Source: Blastocatellia bacterium
GTDB lineage: Bacteria; Acidobacteriota; Blastocatellia; HR10; J050
Assembly (NCBI GenBank): GCA_026985075.1
Contig: JALSQX010000060.1
Coordinates: 62,001 to 126,000, forward strand
DNA: 64,000 nt
Reading direction: 5' to 3'
Positions 2,670 through 54,679 of the stretch are shown piece after piece. Position 1 is the first letter of the stretch, and each line of letters begins with the position of its first letter. Below the pieces are notes generated by a model that searched no databases, was not told the origin of the DNA, and worked only from the letters and a program-made list of their open reading frames with translations. Made by a program: the position numbers and the translations under genes.

Positions 2670-3089
2670 TCACTCCTCGGCCCGTCGTCGAGAACGAAGA
2701 ACGAACCGCTTCCGTCGGGCGCCTTCCAACGAGAACCCGTGGCCGCCCGTCCCATCAACGACATCGAATACCAGCTCATAGCCTCCAAGGCGTCGCGCCT
2801 GCTCCTCCGAAGCGTACACGGGGATTCCCTCCACTTCCCCGAGGCGTCGATCGCTCAACCCGAGATGAAAGCCTTTGAGGAGCATCGGTGACGTCGCATC
2901 GCAACACCCTCCGCTGATCATGAACAGCAGCCCCTCACCATGCTCCCGCTGGAGGTCTTCGAGCAACGCCTGGGCGCGCCGAGTGACCTGAAGCGAGACG
3001 GCGACACCGGTCACTCCACTGCCTCTTCCGGTCAGTGCTCCCGATGGATCGCTGGGGATCACTCGGTCTCTTGGATCCTCTCCGCTCAT
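2670..3089 (-). CDS. DUF779 family protein
   Basis: 139 residues. The conserved DUF779 core is present: FMISGGCCDATSPM with the twin cysteines, then LLKGFHLGLSDRRLGEVEGI, an E-E-Q segment, and FDVVDGTGGHGFSLEG near the C terminus. DUF779 proteins are known mainly as small companions of aldehyde dehydrogenase genes; their biochemical role is unknown. No aldehyde dehydrogenase is in the visible part of this operon. The ATG at 3089 overlaps the stop of the epimerase gene (ATGA), which fixes the likely start. The first ~40 residues are polar and poorly conserved, so a later start cannot be excluded. Confidence 0.8.
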   Translation of the reverse strand: MSGEDPRDRVIPSDPSGALTGRGSGVTGVAVSLQVTRRAQALLEDLQREHGEGLLFMISGGCCDATSPMLLKGFHLGLSDRRLGEVEGIPVYASEEQARRLGGYELVFDVVDGTGGHGFSLEGARRKRFVLRSRRRAEE

Positions 3090-4084
3090 GATGTCTTGTT
3101 CGTCGCCGAGCGCTTCCGTCGCGCCCACTGGATGTATTCGGCGATGCCTTCGGCCAGGTCGACTTCGGGCTCGTATCCCAGTTCCCTCCTGGCCCGAGAG
3201 ATATCATACGGTTGATCCAGGACCGCCGCCGTGCCCGCATATCCTCCGGTCAACGGGACTTTGACCTCGAATTCGGCCCCGGGGATATGCTTGCGGATCT
3301 CGTCCAGAAACTCGGAGAAGGCATATTGACGAGCGTCAGTGATGTTGAATGTTCGGTGCTCCAGCTTCTCAGCATCGCGCGCCCGGATGAGGGCCTGAGC
3401 CACATTACGGACGTGGACGAATCCTTCTCGCCCCCCCCACACGAGCATCGGCTGATCGATGGTCACTTTTTCTCCGTTGAGCGCCCCCTCGACGAGCATA
3501 TGGAGGAGGATGGAGATGGGCGCGCCGAAGGCTCCGCTCCAGACCCCCCAGACGTGTCCCAATCGTGGCGCGACGAAATCGACGCCCAGCGCATCGGCGT
3601 AATCCAGCCCCACGTACTCGGCGGCGATCTTCGTCGTCCCATAGAAGAATCCCGGAATGCGATCGACGGGAGCCTCTTCGGTGATCGCCCCCGCGGGCGG
3701 ATGCTTGGGATAGGCCCCATAGTAAAGGACGATGGAGCTCGTATACACGACGCGCCGAACATCGAGAGCGCGCGCCGCCTCCAGCACATTGACCAATCCC
3801 ATCACGTTGACCTGAACGGCGAGATGGGGCTTGGCGTCGGGCGTGGGCAGGATGGCCGCCGTATGGATGATGTGATCGATGGACTCCTCCTTGATGACGT
3901 GGATGAGATCGGTCATATCGAGGACGCTCCCCCGCAGGAGCTTCACGCGATGGAGATCGACGATCTCTCCCACGGCATCGCGGCGCGGGTGCACGTCGAA
4001 GAGTACGGGAGTCTCGCCTCTGTCGACCAACGCTCGCGCCACATAACTCCCCACTTGGCCGGCGCCCGTAATCAGTGTCGGCAT
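3086..4084 (-). CDS. NAD-dependent epimerase/dehydratase (extended SDR)
   Basis: 332 residues beginning MPTLITGAGQVGSYVARAL, with the TGAGQVGS Rossmann motif at residues 6-13. The catalytic Tyr-Lys pair is in FYGTTKIAAEYVG, and the usual extended-SDR block VNVMGLVNVLEAAR is present. The family works on nucleotide sugars, but many members act on other hydroxy or keto substrates, and no sugar-nucleotide gene is nearby. A role as a dehydrogenase or reductase in the aromatic/cyclic acid pathway is therefore more likely here. The start has GAGGAGGTGAGAT in front. The stop overlaps the DUF779 start. Confidence 0.85.
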   Translation of the reverse strand: MPTLITGAGQVGSYVARALVDRGETPVLFDVHPRRDAVGEIVDLHRVKLLRGSVLDMTDLIHVIKEESIDHIIHTAAILPTPDAKPHLAVQVNVMGLVNVLEAARALDVRRVVYTSSIVLYYGAYPKHPPAGAITEEAPVDRIPGFFYGTTKIAAEYVGLDYADALGVDFVAPRLGHVWGVWSGAFGAPISILLHMLVEGALNGEKVTIDQPMLVWGGREGFVHVRNVAQALIRARDAEKLEHRTFNITDARQYAFSEFLDEIRKHIPGAEFEVKVPLTGGYAGTAAVLDQPYDISRARRELGYEPEVDLAEGIAEYIQWARRKRSATNKTS

Positions 4085-4188
4085 ATCTCACCTCCTCGGT
4101 GCGCGACCGGTGCCGGTCGGCCTCCACATCATGACTCAGTGACCCATCGGGGATGGATCTTTCGGCCCGCGCTGTGGGGCTCGCCCCA

Positions 4189-4908
4189 TCATATCGCGGA
4201 CATACTCCCCATCTGAATGGCTTTTTGATTGACGCCCATCATGGCGGCGGCGATATCGAGCATCCGATCGCGCTGCTCTTCGCCTCGCTTGGCCAGCAAT
4301 CGCGCCGCCAGTCGCCCGTTGGCGATATGGAAGTACTCGTCCGGAAGAATCTCCTCGGTCAAGAGACGACTGAGGCTCTTGTTCGTATACGCCTTCTTGG
4401 CGAGATTGGTGAACAGTGGTACGGCCCATTTCTCGCAACAGAACTGACAATTGAACACGAGCTCCAGCGGATCCTCGGACACCTGATCGCAGTAATCGAA
4501 CTGATAGGTGAAACTGGGATGGGGTTGTTGAGCCAGAAGATCCTCCCCGCCCATCTTCAGCGCCAGACTCCGATAGAGCTTGAAATGGCGCATCTCGTCG
4601 TGAAGTTGACGACAGACGCCGAGTTTCAACTCGGGATAATCGACGGCGTATCCCATTCGCTCGATTTGCCGGGCGAACGTATCCACCGATCGCAACTCAC
4701 CCCATCCCGAGAGATAGACCAGGTGAAGCTGGGCTTCGGGCGACTCCAGGGCGCCGCTGGTGAGATACTCATCGACCCACTTTTCCAGGATTTCACTGAT
4801 GCGGAGATCCAATCGCTTGACGAAATCGTTGGGCTCGATGTCGATGGGAATATCGCCGAAGAATTGCTGGCGCAATCCGGCCACGTCTATTCCTTCTTGA
4901 CCGATCAT
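4189..4908 (-). CDS. Ferritin-like di-iron protein (PaaA/PaaC-type fold)
   Basis: 239 residues, mostly helical. Two ExxH-type metal motifs are visible: LHDEMRHFKLY (about residues 105-115) and EEILPDEYFHIANGR (about 187-201). This spacing matches four-helix-bundle di-iron carboxylate proteins such as the subunits of phenylacetyl-CoA epoxidase. It is short and could be an accessory subunit (PaaC-like) or a stand-alone oxygenase. The operon also encodes a larger BoxB-like protein, so the two may form one complex. The ATG at 4908 is preceded by GGGAGGTGGATC. I do not recognise a specific named orthologue. About 100 bases without a gene separate it from the epimerase downstream. Confidence 0.7.
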   Translation of the reverse strand: MIGQEGIDVAGLRQQFFGDIPIDIEPNDFVKRLDLRISEILEKWVDEYLTSGALESPEAQLHLVYLSGWGELRSVDTFARQIERMGYAVDYPELKLGVCRQLHDEMRHFKLYRSLALKMGGEDLLAQQPHPSFTYQFDYCDQVSEDPLELVFNCQFCCEKWAVPLFTNLAKKAYTNKSLSRLLTEEILPDEYFHIANGRLAARLLAKRGEEQRDRMLDIAAAMMGVNQKAIQMGSMSAI

Positions 4909-4929
4909 GATCCACCTCCCACAAAGGAA

Positions 4930-5958
4930 TTACGGAACGATGACCACGCCGAGGGTCTCCGGTTGCTCCAACATGGCCAATCCATCGTTGATCTCGATCA
5001 ACTGGATCCGATGGGTGAGCAACGGAGCGAGTTGAAACTGGCCCTCGACGGCCATACGGGTGAGCTCCTCGACCTCGTCTCGCCGGGCCAGGCAGGCGCC
5101 GGTGAGAACGAGTTCTCCGAACATGACAGTGAGGATATCCACCTTCACCTCGCCGAAGCATCCGGCGCGGCCAACGACGACGACGCGACCACCACGACGG
5201 ACGAGCGTCGCCGCTCGACTGACCCATTGGGGATCGCCGGTGAAATCAATGACCACATCGGCGCCGATCGGCGCGTAGTCGTCCAGGGCGCGCTTCAGAT
5301 CCTCGGACCGGGCATCGATCGTCCCGTCAGCGCCCTGCTCCCGAGCGATGGCCAGTCGCCGCTCCTCATCGTCGATGACCACGGCTCGGGCGCCGAGCTG
5401 ATGACACATCTGAATGGTCGCCAATCCCCATACCCAGGCCCGCTGGATGAGGACGACTTCGCCAGACTGGATGTTGGCTTGTTTCACGGCCCGATAGGGC
5501 GTGCCTAAACCGCAGGGAATGAGCGACGCCTGTTCCGGAGGGAGCGCGGTCACCGAATAGGGAATGACGTTGCGCTCGGGGACGACCACGTACTGAGCGA
5601 AGCCGCCGGGAAGGTGCGCGCCCACGCCCTTCCAGTTCAAACAGAGATGATCCTGTCCTTTCTGGCACAAGGGACACTGACCGCAACTCACCACGAAATG
5701 CACGATCACGTGATCGCCCTTCTCGACCGACGTCACGCCCTGGCCGACTTTCTCCACCACCCCGGCAATCTGATGCCCCAGGATGAGAGGCTCCTGCATC
5801 CAGGGAAGGCCCAGCGTGAAGAACCGATAATCCGTATCGCAGACGCCGCTGGCCAGAATGCGGAGCAGCACCTCGCCCTCTCCGGGTTCGGGGACCGACT
5901 GCAATTCGAGGATCAATGGCTGTTTCGCCTGATGAAAGACGGCCACATCGTGTTGCAT
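4930..5958 (-). CDS. Zinc-type medium-chain alcohol dehydrogenase with degraded cofactor loop
   Basis: 342 residues, MDR superfamily. The structural zinc site is CGQCPLCQKGQDHLC. For the catalytic zinc, GVCDTD supplies the cysteine and ILGHQIAGVVE the histidine, but the usual GHE is GHQ. The nucleotide-binding turn, normally GAGGVG, reads RAWVWGL here, so the glycine-rich loop is lost although the flanking strands are normal. The protein may bind cofactor differently or have another job. It lies three bases after a second MDR gene, with GTGAGGAGGTGAACC before its ATG. By context it acts on a cyclic CoA ester or alcohol intermediate, but the substrate is unknown. Confidence 0.85.
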   Translation of the reverse strand: MQHDVAVFHQAKQPLILELQSVPEPGEGEVLLRILASGVCDTDYRFFTLGLPWMQEPLILGHQIAGVVEKVGQGVTSVEKGDHVIVHFVVSCGQCPLCQKGQDHLCLNWKGVGAHLPGGFAQYVVVPERNVIPYSVTALPPEQASLIPCGLGTPYRAVKQANIQSGEVVLIQRAWVWGLATIQMCHQLGARAVVIDDEERRLAIAREQGADGTIDARSEDLKRALDDYAPIGADVVIDFTGDPQWVSRAATLVRRGGRVVVVGRAGCFGEVKVDILTVMFGELVLTGACLARRDEVEELTRMAVEGQFQLAPLLTHRIQLIEINDGLAMLEQPETLGVVIVP

Positions 5959-5961
5959 GGT

Positions 5962-44746: not shown

Positions 44747-45898
44747 TTATTGTCGAAAGCCGAGAGTATATTCGGCAATCAGCGCGCGATGGATTTGATT
44801 AGTTCCCTCAATGATCTGAAAGACTTTGGCATCGCGATAGTACCGACTGACCGGGTATTCGGGTGAACAGCCATAAGCGCCAAAGATCTGCACGGCATGA
44901 GTGGCGGCCATGAGAGCGACATCCGTGGCCACCATCTTGGCAATGGATGCTTCTCGGCGCGCTCGCTCCACCCCTTGATCTTTGAGCCAAGCGAGCCGAT
45001 AGGTGAGAAACCGGGCACTTTCGATTCCCGTCACCATGTCAGTGATCATTGATTGAATGAGCTGAAATCGCCCGATTGGTTGATCGAAGACGATCCGGTC
45101 TCGGGCATACGTGATGACCTCGTCCAAGCACGCCTGAGCCATCCCGACAGCGCGCGCAGCGACGCCCAAGCGACCATTCTCGACCGCACACATGGCCACT
45201 TTAAACCCCTCACCTTCAGCCCCGACGCGGTTTTTCGCTGGCACACGGCAATCTTGAAACACGATATCGCCAGTGCAGAGAGGACGGAATCCCAGCTTAT
45301 TCTTGTAAGGGTGGAACGACATGCCCGGCGTATCCCGCTCGATAATGAAGGCACAGATCCCTTTATGCTTGAGACGACGATCGAGCGTGGCGAACGTCAA
45401 TACCCAATCGGCCACATCGAGGAAACTGATCCATGCTTTGCTCCCGTTGAGGACATACTCATTCCCATCACGCCGAGCCGTCGTACGCATTGCGGCGACA
45501 TCAGTTCCTGAGCCAGGTTCAGTCACGCCAGTGGCGGCGAAGGCCTCGCCGCGAGCCAGGGGTCGAAGATATTTTCGTTTCTGCTCCTCCGTGCCATATC
45601 GCAAAATCGCCGAACCCGCCAGGCCACTGGGAAATGAGAGCGCGCAGCCGATGATTTGGCATACGCGCGAGATTTCCTCGATGATGAGCGTGTAGGTCAG
45701 ATAATCGAGCCCAGCGCCACCATACTCGGGTGGGACCACGCCTCCCATGTAGCCGTGTTTAGCTGCCTCTTTGACGAGTTCGATGGGAAACCGCTCCTGC
45801 TGATCGTACTCCATGACATGAGGTGCGATCTCCCGCTGAGCGAACTCGCGCACGGCTTTCCGGATCTGTTGCTGTTCTTCGCTGAGACTGAAATCCAT
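44747..45898 (-). CDS. Acyl-CoA dehydrogenase
   Basis: 383 residues. FAATGVTEPGSGTDVAAMRT and LNGSKAWISFLDVADWVL form the active-site loops. YPVSRYYRDAKVFQIIEGTNQIHR near the end contains the catalytic glutamate (IIEGTN) expected of short/medium-chain enzymes. It starts MDFSLSEEQQQIRKAVREFA, the standard opening. It should introduce a 2,3-double bond in an acyl-CoA and pass electrons to ETF. It lies between the DUF35 genes and the CrtI-like flavoprotein. Confidence 0.95.
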   Translation of the reverse strand: MDFSLSEEQQQIRKAVREFAQREIAPHVMEYDQQERFPIELVKEAAKHGYMGGVVPPEYGGAGLDYLTYTLIIEEISRVCQIIGCALSFPSGLAGSAILRYGTEEQKRKYLRPLARGEAFAATGVTEPGSGTDVAAMRTTARRDGNEYVLNGSKAWISFLDVADWVLTFATLDRRLKHKGICAFIIERDTPGMSFHPYKNKLGFRPLCTGDIVFQDCRVPAKNRVGAEGEGFKVAMCAVENGRLGVAARAVGMAQACLDEVITYARDRIVFDQPIGRFQLIQSMITDMVTGIESARFLTYRLAWLKDQGVERARREASIAKMVATDVALMAATHAVQIFGAYGCSPEYPVSRYYRDAKVFQIIEGTNQIHRALIAEYTLGFRQ

Positions 45899-45918: not shown

Positions 45919-46356
45919 CTATGTGAGGGGAGCGAAGTGAGAAATGGCAAGAATGCTCGCGGGACGCTCATCGCGCCATACAGCCCGAACGCGGGTGACC
46001 CTCTCCACCTCAGAGGGATCAACGTCACCGATGAGATGCACCAGATTCGTATCGGCCCCGTCAAGTCGAATCAATCCTAAGATGAGTGGTGAACGATCCG
46101 GATGTTCGGGCAAGGGGCGTTGTATGATAGTATAACTTATCAGTTCCCCCAGAGGAGGTAACTGACACCACCTGTCGATGCCCCGCCAGCAACGTCCGCA
46201 GAAATTGAGCGGTGGAAGATAAACTCGACCACAAGATGCGCAACGGGTGGCCCAGATCTCACCTCGGGCCAGCCCTTCCAAGAAGCGAGTCAACGCTCGC
46301 CCTGCTGTGTACATGAAGGGAATTTTAATCCTCTGATGCACAACCCATTCATCCAT
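45919..46356 (-). CDS. DUF35 OB-fold/zinc-ribbon protein (second of two)
   Basis: 145 residues. The zinc ribbon is CASCGRVYLPPLNFCGRC (about residues 38-55), followed by an OB-fold with LGLIRLDGADTNLVHLIG. DUF35 proteins bind acyl-CoA and work as partners of thiolase-like proteins, for example ChsH2 with the aldolase Ltp2 in steroid side-chain cleavage. It follows the other DUF35 gene by one base. With two DUF35 and two thiolase-like genes, a pairwise arrangement is likely. Confidence 0.9.
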   Translation of the reverse strand: MDEWVVHQRIKIPFMYTAGRALTRFLEGLARGEIWATRCASCGRVYLPPLNFCGRCWRGIDRWCQLPPLGELISYTIIQRPLPEHPDRSPLILGLIRLDGADTNLVHLIGDVDPSEVERVTRVRAVWRDERPASILAISHFAPLT

Positions 46357-46357
46357 T

Positions 46358-46831
46358 TCATTTCCCTACGAGGCGAAAGTATTTAATGTCGTGATGCAGC
46401 GAGCCTGTACGCGGCTCACGAAAGACGGCTTTAACGCGTTGCCCCACGCGCAGTTTCTTTTCATCCGTTTCATCCACGAAGTGATAAATACTCGTTGAGG
46501 CCCCATCGAGCCGGATAATGGCAAATCCATAGGGCACAGGCCGCTGCTCACCTGTCATAGGGTCAATGAAGGGAAGATGAACCACAGTACAGCCGACAAT
46601 AATCCCTTCATCGCTCAAAGGAACCCAATCCTTCAACTCCTTATAACAGATCCCGCAGACCGGGCGGGGCGGCAGATACACGCGGTGGCAACCAGAACAA
46701 CGCATACCCATGATACGCCCAGCCTCTTTCAATTCGGTGAAGAATCGGGTCGCCAATTCACCAGCGGCATAGTGATATTCAATATCCAAGAGATATTGGA
46801 CTCGTTGTGTCTCGTCGTCCTTTTTAGTCAT
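46358..46831 (-). CDS. DUF35 OB-fold/zinc-ribbon protein (first of two)
   Basis: 157 residues. The zinc ribbon CSGCHRVYLPPRPVCGIC lies at about residues 44-61, then GCTVVHLPFIDP and FAIIRLDGASTSIYHFVDE of the OB-fold. The N-terminal helix (ELATRFFTELKEAG) is typical of DUF35 proteins that bind thiolase partners. Its ATG overlaps the stop of the thiolase-like gene (ATGA), implying equal production with it. It is paralogous to the next DUF35 gene and to the tail of the fusion at 31.8-33.2 kb. Confidence 0.9.
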   Translation of the reverse strand: MTKKDDETQRVQYLLDIEYHYAAGELATRFFTELKEAGRIMGMRCSGCHRVYLPPRPVCGICYKELKDWVPLSDEGIIVGCTVVHLPFIDPMTGEQRPVPYGFAIIRLDGASTSIYHFVDETDEKKLRVGQRVKAVFREPRTGSLHHDIKYFRLVGK

Positions 46832-47988
46832 AGGTCTCGACTCAAAATCATCACATCGGTCCAGGCATTCCCACCATATCCTGTAGCTAAGGCTGTCCGG
46901 ACGCCATCTATCTGACGTTTCCCCGCTTTACCCATAACCTGCAGGGCTGCCTCAGCCACACGAATGAGCGCCGTGGCACCAATTGGATTCGTAGACAGTA
47001 CACCACCAGAAGGATTCACCGGTAATTCTCCTGTCATCTCAGTCACACCCGCATCGATGAGTTTCCCGCCCTCGCCCCGCTCGCAAAATCCCAGATTCTC
47101 ATACATCGCCAGTTCGGCGAACGAGGCAACCTCATAAATTTCAGCCACGTCGAGCTCCTTGCGCGGATTAGTAATTCCCGCGTAAGCATAAGCCCGCCGT
47201 GACGCAGCAACTTGACTCCGCATGGCCGCAAGCCGCTTCGGACTATCTCCCATGTACTGCTGCTCATGTGCCGTCGCTACAGCTTTAATCCAAGCTGGTC
47301 GAGGAGCCAACTGCTTGGCGCGTGATTCTTCGGCGAAGACGACGGCACAGGCCCCGTCCGACTGAGGGCACATGTCTAACAACTTGACCGGGTAGGCCAG
47401 CATGCGAGACTTCAACACATCCTCAACGGTGATATCAGGCATCTGCAGATGAGCATACTCATTGTTGCACGCATTCCGTCGAGCTTTAACGGCGACCTTG
47501 GCTGCTTGTTCCTCAGTCACTCCACTGTCATGTATGTATGTGCTCGCCATAACAGCGAAGTTACCGACAGCACCGGCCATGATCGCTCGTTCCCAAATGG
47601 GATCTCCCACGGTGGTGATCGCCGTCTGTGTGTGTCCCTCCGATTGCTTTTCAAAGCCGATAGCCAACACGACATCATAGATACCGCTCGCCACGTAGTA
47701 ATATGCGGCGATGGCCGTTGTGGTCCCCACCGTGCCTCCAGTATTGAATTTCACTGACGGCTTCAAGTACCCCCCCCATCCTTCAACAGCCCAGAGCTCG
47801 GGGAACAAGAATCCCTCGAATGGCTCCATATTGCCGATCACCACGGCATCTATGTCCTTCATGCGAATATCTGCCTCTTCCAATGCTCTGGTGACTGCTT
47901 CAGTGATGAGCTCGCGGACATTCACATCACGACGTTTCGCTCTATGTTTCGTCTGTCCCGTAGAAATGATGGCTACTCGTCTAGGCAT
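46828..47988 (-). CDS. Thiolase-fold protein lacking thiolase catalytic residues (Ltp2 aldolase-like)
   Basis: 386 residues, lipid-transfer/SCP-x thiolase family. Where thiolases have the cysteine (compare NFCATGTDAF at 30.6 kb) this protein reads FNTGGTVGTTTA. Where they have the first histidine it has AEIYEVASFAEL, with tyrosine. In the GHP loop it reads STNPIGATAL. This pattern matches Ltp2, a retro-aldolase in steroid side-chain degradation that uses tyrosines. A retro-aldol cleavage of a hydroxyacyl-CoA is therefore more likely than thiolysis. It is cotranscribed with DUF35 genes, as Ltp2 is. The start at 47988 is 6 bases after the next thiolase-like stop. Confidence 0.85.
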   Translation of the reverse strand: MPRRVAIISTGQTKHRAKRRDVNVRELITEAVTRALEEADIRMKDIDAVVIGNMEPFEGFLFPELWAVEGWGGYLKPSVKFNTGGTVGTTTAIAAYYYVASGIYDVVLAIGFEKQSEGHTQTAITTVGDPIWERAIMAGAVGNFAVMASTYIHDSGVTEEQAAKVAVKARRNACNNEYAHLQMPDITVEDVLKSRMLAYPVKLLDMCPQSDGACAVVFAEESRAKQLAPRPAWIKAVATAHEQQYMGDSPKRLAAMRSQVAASRRAYAYAGITNPRKELDVAEIYEVASFAELAMYENLGFCERGEGGKLIDAGVTEMTGELPVNPSGGVLSTNPIGATALIRVAEAALQVMGKAGKRQIDGVRTALATGYGGNAWTDVMILSRDL

Positions 47989-47993
47989 ATTCT

Positions 47994-49127
47994 TCACTCG
48001 CGTCGCAAAATAACAACACTTTGATTCTGCCCACAAATTCCGCCCGCCCCATGAGCCAGAGCAGTTTGTGCTCCGTGAACCTGATGCTCTCCAGCCTGGT
48101 CAGTCAATTGAAGATAAGCTTCCACAACGCGCACCAATCCGCTCACGGTGACCGGGTTACCACAGAGCGGTCCCCCAGAAGGATTGATGGGCAACCGTCC
48201 GCCGATCTCACAATCTCCGCGAGCCAGCATATCTTGAGGGGCCTCGCTCAATCCGAGTGCCTCCATAGCCATCAACTCCTCGTAGGCATAGCGGGCCGAG
48301 ATTTCAGCCACATCGATCTCATGCGCGGGATATTCAATGCCGGCCATACGGTAGGCTCGGGATGCGGCTTGGCGCAGGGCTTTCGCCTCTCCTAGTTCTC
48401 GATCCGTCCAATAGGCATCCGTCGCATTCCCCATCCCAATGATAAAAACGGGATGATCGGTGACGGTTCGAGCCTTTGATTCGCTGGCCAACAGGAGAGC
48501 ACAGGCTCCATCTGACTGGGGAGCTGCTTCCAGTTCGTGGATAGGATCGGCGAGGATGGGCGAGTTCAAAACATCGGTTATGGTGAAATCCCCGGCTCGC
48601 TGCGCAAAGGGATTTTTCTTCGCATGCCGATGATTTTTCACCGCTACGGCGGCGATATCCTCAGCCGCGAGCCCTCTTAGCCTCATGTACCGCCGCGCTT
48701 GCAAGGCCGCCGCCGTCACATCGTCTAATCCTAAGTGGCGTTGGGTAAAAGGATCGAACATCAGATTCGTAATGGCATGCGGCGTGCCCTCGGACTCCTT
48801 GCAGTGAGCCACAACAAGAGTCAGCGTGTATTCGCCAGACATGATTCGTGCCGCTCCATAGAGCAGCGCTTGAAGGCCATCGGCAGCAACTTTGGCCTCG
48901 GCATTTAAATACCCTCCGACCACTTCGTTGATCGTCATTCCCGAAATCGTCCGGCCATCCCAGGCATCCTGTGATGCCGTGACAATGCTCCTGATCTCTT
49001 TCATCGAGACGCCGGTCTTATGAAGCAGCTCTCGTACGACCATGTACACGAGCTCATTGATAGCCAGCGAGGCTATGCGCTCCTCAAACCGGGTTTGCGC
49101 CACTCCGACGATACTGACTTTTGTCAT
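47994..49127 (-). CDS. Second thiolase-fold protein lacking catalytic residues
   Basis: 377 residues, related to the following gene. The cysteine position reads EAKVAADGLQALLYG, the histidine region AEISARYAYEELMAM, and the GHP loop CGNPVTVSGLVRV, so all three thiolase residues are replaced. It keeps the family frame: a C-terminal INPSGGPLCGNP and ALAHGAGGICGQNQ. It is likely the partner of the other thiolase-like protein, either as a second aldolase-type subunit or as a non-catalytic one. Its ATG overlaps the enoyl-CoA hydratase stop. Each of the two might bind one of the two DUF35 proteins. Confidence 0.83.
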   Translation of the reverse strand: MTKVSIVGVAQTRFEERIASLAINELVYMVVRELLHKTGVSMKEIRSIVTASQDAWDGRTISGMTINEVVGGYLNAEAKVAADGLQALLYGAARIMSGEYTLTLVVAHCKESEGTPHAITNLMFDPFTQRHLGLDDVTAAALQARRYMRLRGLAAEDIAAVAVKNHRHAKKNPFAQRAGDFTITDVLNSPILADPIHELEAAPQSDGACALLLASESKARTVTDHPVFIIGMGNATDAYWTDRELGEAKALRQAASRAYRMAGIEYPAHEIDVAEISARYAYEELMAMEALGLSEAPQDMLARGDCEIGGRLPINPSGGPLCGNPVTVSGLVRVVEAYLQLTDQAGEHQVHGAQTALAHGAGGICGQNQSVVILRRE

Positions 49128-49915
49128 CGTCCCTTCCATCGCGGCTCTCGCTTCTCCAAAAATGCGGAAATCCCTTCCCGCGCATCTTCAGAGAGGACTG
49201 CCTTAGTGCAGTATTTCTTCTCCATCTGCAACCCCAACATCAAATCGACATCGAATGATTCAACCAAACACTGCTTGATCGCCTGCAAGGCAACAGGTGC
49301 TTGCCCGGCCAATCTCTCGGCGAAGGATACAGTTTCCTCAATCGTCTTGTCAGGGGGACAGGCTCGCGTGACGAGTCCAATCTGTTCGGCGCGCGTTGCG
49401 TCTAATCGCTCGCCTGTCATCATCAACTCAGCCGCGCGTTCTCGTCCAATCAACCGCGGCAGTCTCTGCGTTCCACCTCCACCAGGAATAATCCCCAGGT
49501 TGATCTCCGGTAATCCAATCCTCGGCTCACCTGTTGACATGAAGCGAAAATCTAAAGTGAGGACAAACTCACAGCCACCGCCCAATGCATGACCGGTGAT
49601 CGCCGCAAGTGTAGGTTTCCTAATGCGTTCGATGCGATTGAATGTGGTGTGAACCGTGTCAATCTTCTGCTCGATAAACTCGCGTTCAAACCGATAATTC
49701 TTCATCTGTTTGATATCGGCTCCGGCCATGAAGATCTTTTCCAAGCCGCTGAGGAAGACAATAACCCGGGTTGATTCATCAGCATCCAGCTGTTCACTCA
49801 CCCGCACGAGTTCATCGTAGAGGTCGTTATCAAGAGCATTAACGGGGGGCTTTTTAATGGTTACACGCGCAACCCCGCCTCGCTTCTCTACTCGTAAGAA
49901 TGCGTACTCTGACAT
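49124..49915 (-). CDS. Enoyl-CoA hydratase/isomerase (crotonase family)
   Basis: 263 residues. FMAGADIKQMKN supplies the oxyanion hole, GHALGGGCEFVLTLDFRFM and LPEINLGIIPGGGGTQRLPRL follow. Glutamates are present in both catalytic positions, so hydration of 2-enoyl-CoA is likely. In this operon it would make the hydroxyacyl-CoA that the aldolase-type thiolase-fold proteins could cleave. The start overlaps the amidohydrolase stop by one base (TAATG). Confidence 0.93.
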   Translation of the reverse strand: MSEYAFLRVEKRGGVARVTIKKPPVNALDNDLYDELVRVSEQLDADESTRVIVFLSGLEKIFMAGADIKQMKNYRFEREFIEQKIDTVHTTFNRIERIRKPTLAAITGHALGGGCEFVLTLDFRFMSTGEPRIGLPEINLGIIPGGGGTQRLPRLIGRERAAELMMTGERLDATRAEQIGLVTRACPPDKTIEETVSFAERLAGQAPVALQAIKQCLVESFDVDLMLGLQMEKKYCTKAVLSEDAREGISAFLEKREPRWKGR

Positions 49916-50811: not shown

Positions 50812-51228
50812 CTATTGGTGATCCGATTCTGGTTCCTCGACCAGCTCGATCAGAACGCCACCTGTGGACGCCGGGTCCAAAAAGGCAATTTTTCGACTAT
50901 GCAATCCCCGGCGCGGACGCTCATCCAATAACCGGACACCTTCCTGATGTAATCGTTCGAGTTCGGCCTCGATGTGATCCGTGTGGAACGAAAGATGATG
51001 CACTCCTTCTCCACGCTCTCTTAAGATGCGACCTACCCGAGATGTTTCGTCAGGTGAACTCAGGAGTTCCAGATGCACGCCATTCAGATCAAGGACGGCA
51101 ACGTCAGTCTGTGATTCATCGAGGAACTCCCGTTCGATGAGGCGCGCACCAAAAAGTTGGTGGAAGCGCTCGATGGCCTCCTCTAAGTCGGCCACTATGA
51201 TGGCGATATGATTCAGTTTCCCTATCAT
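50812..51228 (-). CDS. VOC-family protein, methylmalonyl-CoA epimerase-like
   Basis: 138 residues. Ligands: LNHIAIIVADLEEAI (His), EGVHHLSFHTDHIEA (His), and GGVLIELVEE (Glu). The length and the ELLSSPDE block match methylmalonyl-CoA epimerase more closely than glyoxalase I. It is the first gene of the large operon, and the promoter and palindrome lie only about 10-60 bases before its start. No Shine-Dalgarno site is visible in the very short leader. An epimerisation next to the thioester would fit the CoA-ester pathway. Confidence 0.88.
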   Translation of the reverse strand: MIGKLNHIAIIVADLEEAIERFHQLFGARLIEREFLDESQTDVAVLDLNGVHLELLSSPDETSRVGRILRERGEGVHHLSFHTDHIEAELERLHQEGVRLLDERPRRGLHSRKIAFLDPASTGGVLIELVEEPESDHQ

Positions 51229-51360: not shown

Positions 51361-51888
51361 TCACACCTCACAAGCGTAGAAAATCTGAAACACCTCGTTG
51401 AATCTCTGAAACCCGGTTACGAGAGCGAAATAGACGCCGAGTTCCACCAGTTCACTGTCGCTGAAGTGTCGCTGCATCTGCTTAAGGAGGCTCCCTTCAA
51501 GGGATGCACGAGAACGATGCGCCATCAACTCGGCCATTCTGAGAACCGCTTTCTCGCGTGGTGAATAATCGCCCTGCTCATAGGCATCGAGTTGGTCAAT
51601 CTTCCATTGAGGAATGTTATTCCGCTTGGCCCAAGCGAGATTAGCGGCCTTTCAGTAATGACAATCATTCAACTGCGCCAACTTCAACCGGGCCAACTCC
51701 TTGATCTCGGGTTCAATCTGTCCGTTCAAGAGCACTTCATAGAACCGGTTGAACGCTTTGAACGCCTCCGGGATGTGAGCCATAACGCGGGCAAACACGG
51801 TATCACCAATCCAGGCTTCGTAGGTCTCGACAATTTCTCTCATATCGGAGGAGAGTTCCTCTATCTTCTTTAACATCACAGCTGGCAT
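51361..51888 (-). CDS. Probable selenoprotein: AhpD-like/carboxymuconolactone decarboxylase family with CxxU
   Basis: The frame from 51888 is 176 codons long with one in-frame TGA at 51654-51652 (codon 79) and the final stop at 51361. Before the TGA: AFNRFYEVLLNGQI, ELARLKLAQLNDCHY. After it, the same frame continues KAANLAWAKRNNIPQWK, YSPREKAVLRMAELM, then a family-like end. In AhpD-like proteins this place is CxxC (for example NGCHYC), so TGA replaces the second cysteine, giving NDCHYU. A hairpin at SECIS distance follows. The start has GAGGAGGATAAA. The alternative is a gene broken by a Cys-to-stop mutation. It lies in the operon with the luciferase-like genes, with an expected peroxidase or thiol-redox role. 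Confidence 0.75.
51614..51654 (-). promoter_or_regulatory. SECIS-like hairpin after in-frame UGA
   Basis: After UGA (51654-51652), a 7-base inverted repeat CGCTTGG/CCAAGCG is centred on 51630. As RNA it can form CGCUU, loop GGGCC, AAGCG. The loop begins 20 bases after the UGA, close to the 19-base distance of the GG-loop in the E. coli fdhF SECIS. Bacterial SECIS elements need a G-rich loop at about this spacing; this one fits by eye. Confidence 0.6.
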
Positions 51889-51997
51889 TTTATCCTCCTC
51901 GGCAGAAATTTCGGCTGTGAGTAAACGCGATCTCACTTATAACAACTCCATAGGCACTGCGCGGGCTGAATCTTCGCGCGGCTAATGCCATAAAGAG

Positions 51998-52528: not shown

Positions 52529-53557
52529 TTATTGGTGAAAGTGAGGGATGACCTCCGTGCCGAACAGTTTGATGCAGTCCAGTACTTTGTCCCACGCCGG
52601 CCCTTCCGGCAAGCGAAAGCGCATCACGATCTCATCGACTCCATACTCCCGCTCATACATCTCAATCTGCTTGATGCAATCTTCCGGAGAGCCCAGAACC
52701 AAGTGCTTGCTTCCGCGTTCGATGGTGAAATCCGATTCTGACTGGAATTCCGGGTGGTGAGTCAGGATGCCCCAACGAAAGTAAAACAACCACTCTTCAA
52801 TGGCGAGGCGACCAAAGACCTCTTCGGCTTCCCGGCGGGTGGGGGCCACCCACCCATCGCGCATGAGAACCACTTTGGAGCGACGCCCCGCCGCCTTGGC
52901 CGCGTCCCGATAAATCTTGACCTGATCGAGCCACACCTTCTTATCCAGCGGGAATGGATCGCTACACCAGGCATCGCCAATCCGACCCGCGCGGGCAATT
53001 GTTTTGGGAAACATCCCGCCAACCCACCACTCAGGCATTGGCTGCTGATACGGCTTAGGCGTGAGCATCACATCCTTGAAATGGTAAAACACCCCATCGA
53101 AGGAAAATCTCTCTTCCGTCCACGCTCGCCTGATCACTTCCACCGCCTCCTCGAACCGTCGGCCTCGCTCATGATGGGGGACGCCGAACATTTGGCTGTA
53201 TCCGGAGTGATATCCCGACGCGATGCCAAAAATGACCCGTCCTCGAGACATCTGATCAATCAGGGCGACTTGCTCGGCTACATGCATGGGATTGTGCAAA
53301 GGCAAAACGAGAATATAGCTCCCAATCCGGGCGCGGCTGGTTCGTATGGCTAACGCGGCTAACAGGATGAGCGAAGAGGGGAAGAAACACTCTGTACGCC
53401 CATGTCGCTCAGGAACGAGTAGCGCATCGAATCCCACTTCTTCGGCCAATTCCGCCTCACGAAAGAGCTGATCGATGAAAGCTCCTACTTCCGATGATGT
53501 AGGAATGGGGCGATTGTAGGGTCCGCCATGGGTATCGATCAAATAATGGAGTCTCAT
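52529..53557 (-). CDS. Luciferase-like (LLM) flavin-dependent monooxygenase
   Basis: 342 residues, LLM class. Typical: MRLHYLIDTHGG start, ELAEEVGFDALLVPERHGRTE, RIGSYILVLPLHNPMHVAEQVALIDQMSRGRVIFGIASGYH, RRFEEAVEVIRRAW, and a C-terminal HLVLGSPEDCIKQIEMYE. The family uses FMN or F420 to oxygenate or dehydrogenate substrates. It pairs with a second, related enzyme upstream. The start has GGAAGGGCAAG. Substrate is unknown; oxidation of a ketone or ring carbon is consistent with the surrounding operons. Confidence 0.9.
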   Translation of the reverse strand: MRLHYLIDTHGGPYNRPIPTSSEVGAFIDQLFREAELAEEVGFDALLVPERHGRTECFFPSSLILLAALAIRTSRARIGSYILVLPLHNPMHVAEQVALIDQMSRGRVIFGIASGYHSGYSQMFGVPHHERGRRFEEAVEVIRRAWTEERFSFDGVFYHFKDVMLTPKPYQQPMPEWWVGGMFPKTIARAGRIGDAWCSDPFPLDKKVWLDQVKIYRDAAKAAGRRSKVVLMRDGWVAPTRREAEEVFGRLAIEEWLFYFRWGILTHHPEFQSESDFTIERGSKHLVLGSPEDCIKQIEMYEREYGVDEIVMRFRLPEGPAWDKVLDCIKLFGTEVIPHFHQ

Positions 53558-53602
53558 CTTGCCCTTCCTTCCGTCTGGTGCGGCCGGTTGGCGCGCCGAC
53601 CA

Positions 53603-54646
53603 TCATTGATGGAAATGCGGAATCACTTCCTTTCCAAACAGCTCGATACATCGCATCGTGGCTCGGTGATCAGGACCGGTGGGATGACGGAAGTAAAAAA
53701 TGATATACTCACACCCTACTTCCCGGCGATACCGCTCAATCTCATCCACAACCTGAGCGGGCGTGCCCGCAATCAACCGATCGGGCACGATCCGATCGTA
53801 GGTCCACTCTTCATCTCGGATGGTACGCACCCAGGGCTCCCAATCGGCATTGAATCGCCCGGACTCGAAAAATCCCAAGTTCTTGTAAAAGAGATGATAG
53901 TCTCGCACCGTGGGCCACCACACTTCGCGTAATTCCCTCTCGTCGTATGAGACCCAACCGTCACGAATCAGCACGACTTGGACGTTGTCTTGATTCCCGT
54001 GCTCGGCGGCCGACTGGCGATAGATCTCCGCCCAGGCCTTCATCACATGAATGACGTGCAAAGGATCCGATACCCAGCCAGTTCCCAATCGACCAGCACG
54101 CTTCAACGCCGGTTCACTCATGGCACCGATCCAAATGGGTGGGTGCGGTTTCTGGATGACACGAGGGGTGATCATCACGTTCTCAAGCTGAAAGTACTCG
54201 CCCTGGAACGAGAAAGGTTGACCGCTCCAAGCCCGGCGCAAGATCTCGATCTCTTCGGTGAACCGTTTCACCACACCCTTCATGGAAATACCAAACAGCC
54301 TGAACTCGGGCTCGTTCAGATTCAACCCCACGCCCAAGATGACACGCCCTTTGGAGATATTATCGAGGACGGCAACTTCTTCAGCGACGTGGATAGGATG
54401 CCACTCAGGCAGGTGCATGATCGATGTACCCAACCGCAGACGCTCAGTATGCGCCGCTACGGCAGCCAAGAACAACAACGGAGCACATAGGTACCCATCA
54501 GGCATCATGTGGTGCTCAGGGACGAAGAGGCCATCAAATCCAACTGCCTCGGCCAACTTGGCTTCCTCGAAGATCTCATCATAAAGGTGTGGAATCCGCG
54601 CCCCATCGGGGGGATCCTGGGTGTTGACTAACAGGCCGAATTTCAT
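53603..54646 (-). CDS. Luciferase-like (LLM) flavin-dependent monooxygenase
   Basis: 347 residues. KFGLLVNTQDPPDGARIPHL start, EAVGFDGLFVPEHHMMPDG, RLGTSIMHLPEWHPIHVAEE, RVILGVGLNLNEPEF, RLIAGTPAQVVDEIERYRRE, and GCEYIIFYFRHPTGPDH. It is homologous to the next gene (both end with CIELFGKEVIPHFHQ or a close variant). First gene of this small operon, with CTGGAGGTCTCGAT before ATG at 54646. A 12-base inverted repeat lies 34 bases upstream. The product probably oxygenates a CoA-pathway intermediate, in step with or instead of the second enzyme. Confidence 0.9.
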   Translation of the reverse strand: MKFGLLVNTQDPPDGARIPHLYDEIFEEAKLAEAVGFDGLFVPEHHMMPDGYLCAPLLFLAAVAAHTERLRLGTSIMHLPEWHPIHVAEEVAVLDNISKGRVILGVGLNLNEPEFRLFGISMKGVVKRFTEEIEILRRAWSGQPFSFQGEYFQLENVMITPRVIQKPHPPIWIGAMSEPALKRAGRLGTGWVSDPLHVIHVMKAWAEIYRQSAAEHGNQDNVQVVLIRDGWVSYDERELREVWWPTVRDYHLFYKNLGFFESGRFNADWEPWVRTIRDEEWTYDRIVPDRLIAGTPAQVVDEIERYRREVGCEYIIFYFRHPTGPDHRATMRCIELFGKEVIPHFHQ

Positions 54647-54679
54647 ATCGAGACCTCCAGCAGCAGAGCGATTCACCAA

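Follow-up and report, generated by a model that had tools for sequence, protein, structure and literature searches.

Within a 64,000-nucleotide stretch of a Blastocatellia bacterium contig, here called the window, a gene on the minus strand at positions 51361 to 51888 very probably encodes an AhpD-like selenoprotein in which the UGA at codon 79 would be read as selenocysteine. We favor this reading because of the reading frame, the exchange of UGA and Cys codons among homologs, a covarying bacterial SECIS hairpin, and the presence of the selenocysteine machinery. The predicted CMD/AhpD-like protein, here termed CMD-Sec, has 175 amino acids and was recognized from its frame, a PF02627 match, its homologs, and its AhpD-like fold. 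Standard annotation would stop the gene at codon 78, and likewise in every close relative, with the loss of the active site. Recognizing Sec79 would set right how a conserved gene of a catabolic cluster is annotated.

The CMD-Sec frame opens with an ATG at 51888 to 51886, preceded by a ribosome-binding-site-like GAGGAGG that is directly visible in the sequence (51893 to 51899, minus strand). It contains a sole internal TGA at 51654 to 51652, codon 79, predicted from comparison with homologs to be Sec79 at the second Cys position of a C-x-Y-C motif. The position of this TGA, its frame, and the gene coordinates given in an earlier note on this DNA were exact when the sequence was reread. That note was also correct that the frame stays open past the TGA with no other stop, but the true count is 96 codons rather than the 97 it gave, followed by a TGA stop at 51363 to 51361. 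The read-through protein carries the motif N-D-C76-H-Y78-U79-K-A-A-N83 and scores 30.3 bits against PF02627 (CMD), above the gathering cutoff of 23.

A total of 195 relatives were searched, and the clade counted here consists of the window copy and six others from the same genus and order. These six are 59 to 89% identical to the window copy and have exactly one TGA each, so that all seven members, from independent assemblies, share it at the identical codon. Contig search matches all belonged to this clade and came from MAGs, two labeled Acidobacteria/Acidobacteriota and one Blastocatellia, plus Bacterium HR10 and HR08; a plasmid search found homologs at about 30% identity at most. The frame is conserved before and after the TGA, and both parts are under purifying selection. 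Downstream of the UGA, dN/dS was approximately 0.07 to 0.26 in the four close pairs measured, well below 1, so that purifying selection extends past this codon, and the close relatives contained none of the random stops or frameshifts for which they were checked. Distant homologs, approximately 25 to 31% identical, were of two main sorts, having either TGA at the same codon or TGC/TGT there, and the alignment thus bears out the proposal that the TGA occupies the place of the second cysteine of CxxC in relatives. In a tree of 47 homologs the seven members formed one clade (100/100), and about five Sec/Cys changes were needed; deeper placement was unsure because of long branches.

The predicted apical hairpin of the bacterial SECIS lies at 51622 to 51638 (minus strand) and has the sequence TCGCTTG-GGC-CAAGCGG, with seven pairs and a GGC loop at 51631 to 51629. 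The earlier note had described a G-rich hairpin loop some 20 bases past the UGA, and the loop indeed falls at bases 21 to 23, within a structure that is conserved and covarying; its stem starts 14 to 16 bases past the UGA, depending on where the stem base is counted. In a ten-sequence alignment, 70 of 70 pair cells were standard (100% paired), six of the seven pairs showed double compensatory changes, and the covariation score of the stem was reached by none of 500 shuffles. Structures slid along the same ten sequences had only 23 to 46% of cells paired, and RNAalifold, unaided, returned the same stem. Six or seven of the seven pairs plus the GGC loop were present in 24 of 25 distinct Sec-type homologs; Cys-type homologs formed 0 to 5 of the pairs. 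The case for a SECIS element rests on this covariation and on the absence of the hairpin from Cys homologs. The lone Sec-type exception, L087, has the TGA but forms only one of the seven pairs at the common offset. A Cys is present in L067, a near relative, and L087 may have a different SECIS position or reflect a recent change.

By itself the hairpin is only modest evidence for recoding. Of the 2,585 TGA trinucleotides in the window, 6 have all seven pairs at the exact offset, and the full stem would arise in 1.3% of synonymous ways of encoding the peptide. Hairpin energy was rejected as evidence, as the folding z-scores are weak: folded as a single strand, the window copy is unexceptional (z, −0.59) and adopts a competing pairing at minimum energy, and most single copies have ordinary fold energies. 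It is conservation, in the form of the same-codon TGA and the covarying stem, that is decisive in placing recoding beyond chance. Elsewhere in the window, a TGA at 1101 to 1103 on the plus strand, in a long open frame, is followed at SECIS distance by a hairpin of 8 pairs, but this is a shadow open reading frame antisense to an apparent enoyl-CoA hydratase gene, a warning that hairpins alone mislead.

The source genome (5.2 Mb, 98.7% complete, draft) was searched for selA, selB, selC (tRNA-Sec), and selD, as the earlier note had proposed, and all four were present. With no random stops or frameshifts in the close relatives either, both of the outcomes that the note had named as refuting were looked for and did not occur. 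The tRNA-Sec scored 72.8 bits and has the anticodon UCA, while SelA scored 478.7 bits, SelB 370.9 bits (over its cutoff), and SelD 369.2 bits. The SelD gene (L017; G000:C33:250191-251117, minus strand) itself contains one in-frame TGA, in the context MSHGAG-TGA-ACK, which makes it a second predicted selenoprotein of this genome; Sec-containing SelD is a well-known kind of selenoprotein. Since 178 of the 195 relatives have SelA, finding it here is no surprise and says nothing specific about the CMD-Sec gene; its co-occurrence was set aside as uninformative. A point against the selenocysteine reading is that SelA was not found in the same-genus genome G001 (draft, 480 contigs).

A pseudogene, in which a TGC/TGT Cys codon mutated to a true TGA stop and the C-terminal half is decaying, needs just a single base change and could be entertained in a draft genome, but its probability is negligible and it is rejected along with sequencing error, as the same TGA is common to seven clade members from independent assemblies, 96 codons follow it under purifying selection without a further stop or frameshift, and there are a covarying hairpin and Sec machinery. 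The case against gene decay made in the earlier note thus holds. We also consider it very improbable that the UGA is reassigned or read through without selenium, whether as Trp or Cys or by low-level readthrough beyond an intended short product. Programmed readthrough would likewise conserve both halves of the frame, but the CMD-Sec gene itself terminates in TGA and tRNA-Sec and SelA/B/D are present, which makes reassignment unlikely; moreover, a hairpin that is missing in Cys homologs stands at SECIS distance, and residue 79 aligns with the redox Cys. Selenocysteine insertion, which the earlier note had inferred for this gene, is supported by the clade-wide TGA, the covarying stem, and the Sec machinery: the ribosome would decode UGA 79 by means of SelB, tRNA-Sec(UCA), and the hairpin that closely follows the codon, and Sec79 would place a selenol in a C-x-Y-U redox pair.

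The structure model of the CMD-Sec protein has moderate confidence (pLDDT, 80) and a TM score of approximately 0.6 to the nearest folds. The nearest solved folds are AhpD-like (2prr, 7xw1, 2ijc, and others), and sequence search agrees. In PA0269 the catalytic relay consists of Glu36, Cys48, Tyr50, Cys51, and His55, and its two Cys and its His are reported to be invariant across the family (PMC3141380). CMD-Sec shares with PA0269 and the AhpD-like solved structures (2ijc, 2o4d, 7xw1; PMC3141380) the fold and the Glu-Cys-Tyr-(Cys/Sec) spacing: Glu64, Cys76, Tyr78, and Sec79, invariant in all seven clade members, match Glu36, Cys48, Tyr50, and Cys51. It differs from them in having Sec for Cys51 and Asn for His55 (PA0269 numbering), a longer N terminus, and an invariant Cys173 near the C terminus. 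The His four residues past the second Cys is absent from the clade, all seven members having Asn83 instead, whereas other Sec homologs retain it: His stands at this position in each of the 20 other Sec rows scored and in 24 of the 25 scored Cys rows, a few rows being duplicates. As the relay His is replaced by Asn, peroxidase activity via the classic relay is not assured. It may be that the low pKa of the selenol makes the relay His needless, and the replacement of His by Asn gives a straightforward way to ask whether selenium can take over from the proton relay in activating AhpD-like enzymes. Cys173 occurs in a Y/F-A-C context in all seven members and is possibly a further redox residue; its segment is poorly modeled in the structure prediction.

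The CMD-Sec gene lies within a same-strand run on the minus strand, between genes for a DUF2889 protein (PF11136; 51998 to 52525) and a VOC protein (50812 to 51228) that scores just above the methylmalonyl-CoA epimerase cutoff (TIGR03081; 115.8 versus 114.95). Beyond the DUF2889 gene are two LLM (luciferase-like) flavin/F420 oxidoreductases (52529 to 54679; 52529 to 53557 and 53603 to 54679). On the other side are an amidohydrolase (PF04909; 49915 to 50796), an enoyl-CoA hydratase/isomerase (49124 to 49915), two thiolase-like proteins (46828 to 49139; 47994 to 49139 and 46828 to 48036), two zinc-ribbon/OB (ChsH2, DUF35-type) proteins (45919 to 46831), and an acyl-CoA dehydrogenase-like protein (44747 to 45898). 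The last was identified by reading and its synteny was tested; the oxidoreductases, DUF2889 protein, amidohydrolase, hydratase, thiolase-like proteins, and zinc-ribbon proteins come from a neighbor scan and synteny. Gene order is common to the four order-mates with longer flanks (L055 to L058) apart from one insertion, a TonB-receptor-like gene between the DUF2889 and CMD-Sec genes (about 3000 to 5960 in those loci) that is absent there in the window. In L054 and L026, with shorter flanks, the VOC-amidohydrolase-enoyl-CoA hydratase side agrees as far as it is reached. Genomes with the CMD-Sec gene have an orthologous amidohydrolase (at least 85% identity); among those lacking it, G002 and G006 had only amidohydrolase paralogs of 46 to 48% and G003 (78% complete) had none. 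The cluster looks catabolic and CoA based, and the CMD-Sec gene occurs where this apparently CoA-type cluster occurs and is missing where the cluster is missing.

We hypothesize that U79 is the attacking residue, with a peroxide or some other two-electron oxidant as its target, that C76 resolves the oxidized U79 as a selenenylsulfide, and that the enzyme is regenerated by a thiol donor (lipoyl, thioredoxin, or a low-molecular thiol). CMD-Sec would also protect, or feed electrons to, the neighboring LLM-type oxidoreductases and the enzymes of CoA-ester oxidation. Such a role for CMD-Sec, as a putative selenol-based AhpD-like peroxidase/reductase serving the cluster, is plausible and somewhat favored. 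It is less probable that Sec made the otherwise invariant relay His dispensable and gave rise to a selenol enzyme that serves a single catabolic cluster, perhaps acting on a pathway substrate and not on peroxides. A related alternative, which concerns the role alone and not selenocysteine, is that the selenoprotein is mainly reductive on a cluster substrate, for example in reductive dehalogenation, or is an electron transfer partner rather than a peroxidase. The tie of the gene to a catabolic cluster and the missing AhpD relay His would fit such a function, as would the appearance of Bmp8 (6ohi, 6ohj), named a debrominase, among both the sequence and the fold matches. Bmp8 is, however, just one of many AhpD-like matches; although it shares the fold family, it is approximately 18% identical to CMD-Sec and its function is not transferable, and the scan of the neighbors identified no halogen-specific gene. 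We regard a mainly reductive role as possible but rather unlikely, and the peroxidase/reductase role is the one that we tentatively prefer.

Selenoproteins of the CxxU AhpD-like and CMD-like families have been established since 2005 (PMC1088965, PMC2398784, PMC13188914), in agreement with the statement of the earlier note that CxxU occurs in some AhpD-like proteins. The AhpD-like 1/2 and CMD-like selenoproteins came from the Sargasso Sea and GOS surveys (PMC1088965, PMC2398784), and Table 1 of PMC13188914 includes TIGR01926 CxxU and PF02627 CxxU. CMD-Sec has in common with the survey proteins an AhpD/CMD-related protein, the CxxU motif, and a bacterial SECIS element. The Sec-type relatives L031, L032, and L034 score 76.8, 80.7, and 95.1 against TIGR01926 (peroxidase-related subfamily; cutoff, 81.8), near or above the cutoff, whereas the window clade is approximately 25 to 31% identical to these relatives, has Asn for their His, and at 42 bits does not reach that cutoff. 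Of the NCBIfam models, NF053654 (YciW-related (seleno)protein) gives the highest score, aligning along most of the protein, with 47.1 bits for CMD-Sec and 56 bits for its ortholog L026; CMD-Sec falls far under the 310-bit cutoff and is not a member. As all matched NCBIfam models are below cutoff, the subfamily appears not yet to be curated there. The description of CMD-Sec as a new selenoprotein is thus to be qualified: the kind of protein is already known, and what appears to be undescribed, in the parts of the literature covered, is a divergent subfamily linked to one catabolic cluster and with the relay His replaced by Asn, which large MAG survey candidate lists (e.g., the groundwater survey cited in PMC13188914) may include. 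Among the Acidobacteriota homologs, L065, L070, L073, L074, and L078 have lost the first motif Cys and kept the Cys at the Sec position (e.g., N-Q-T-P-Y-C).
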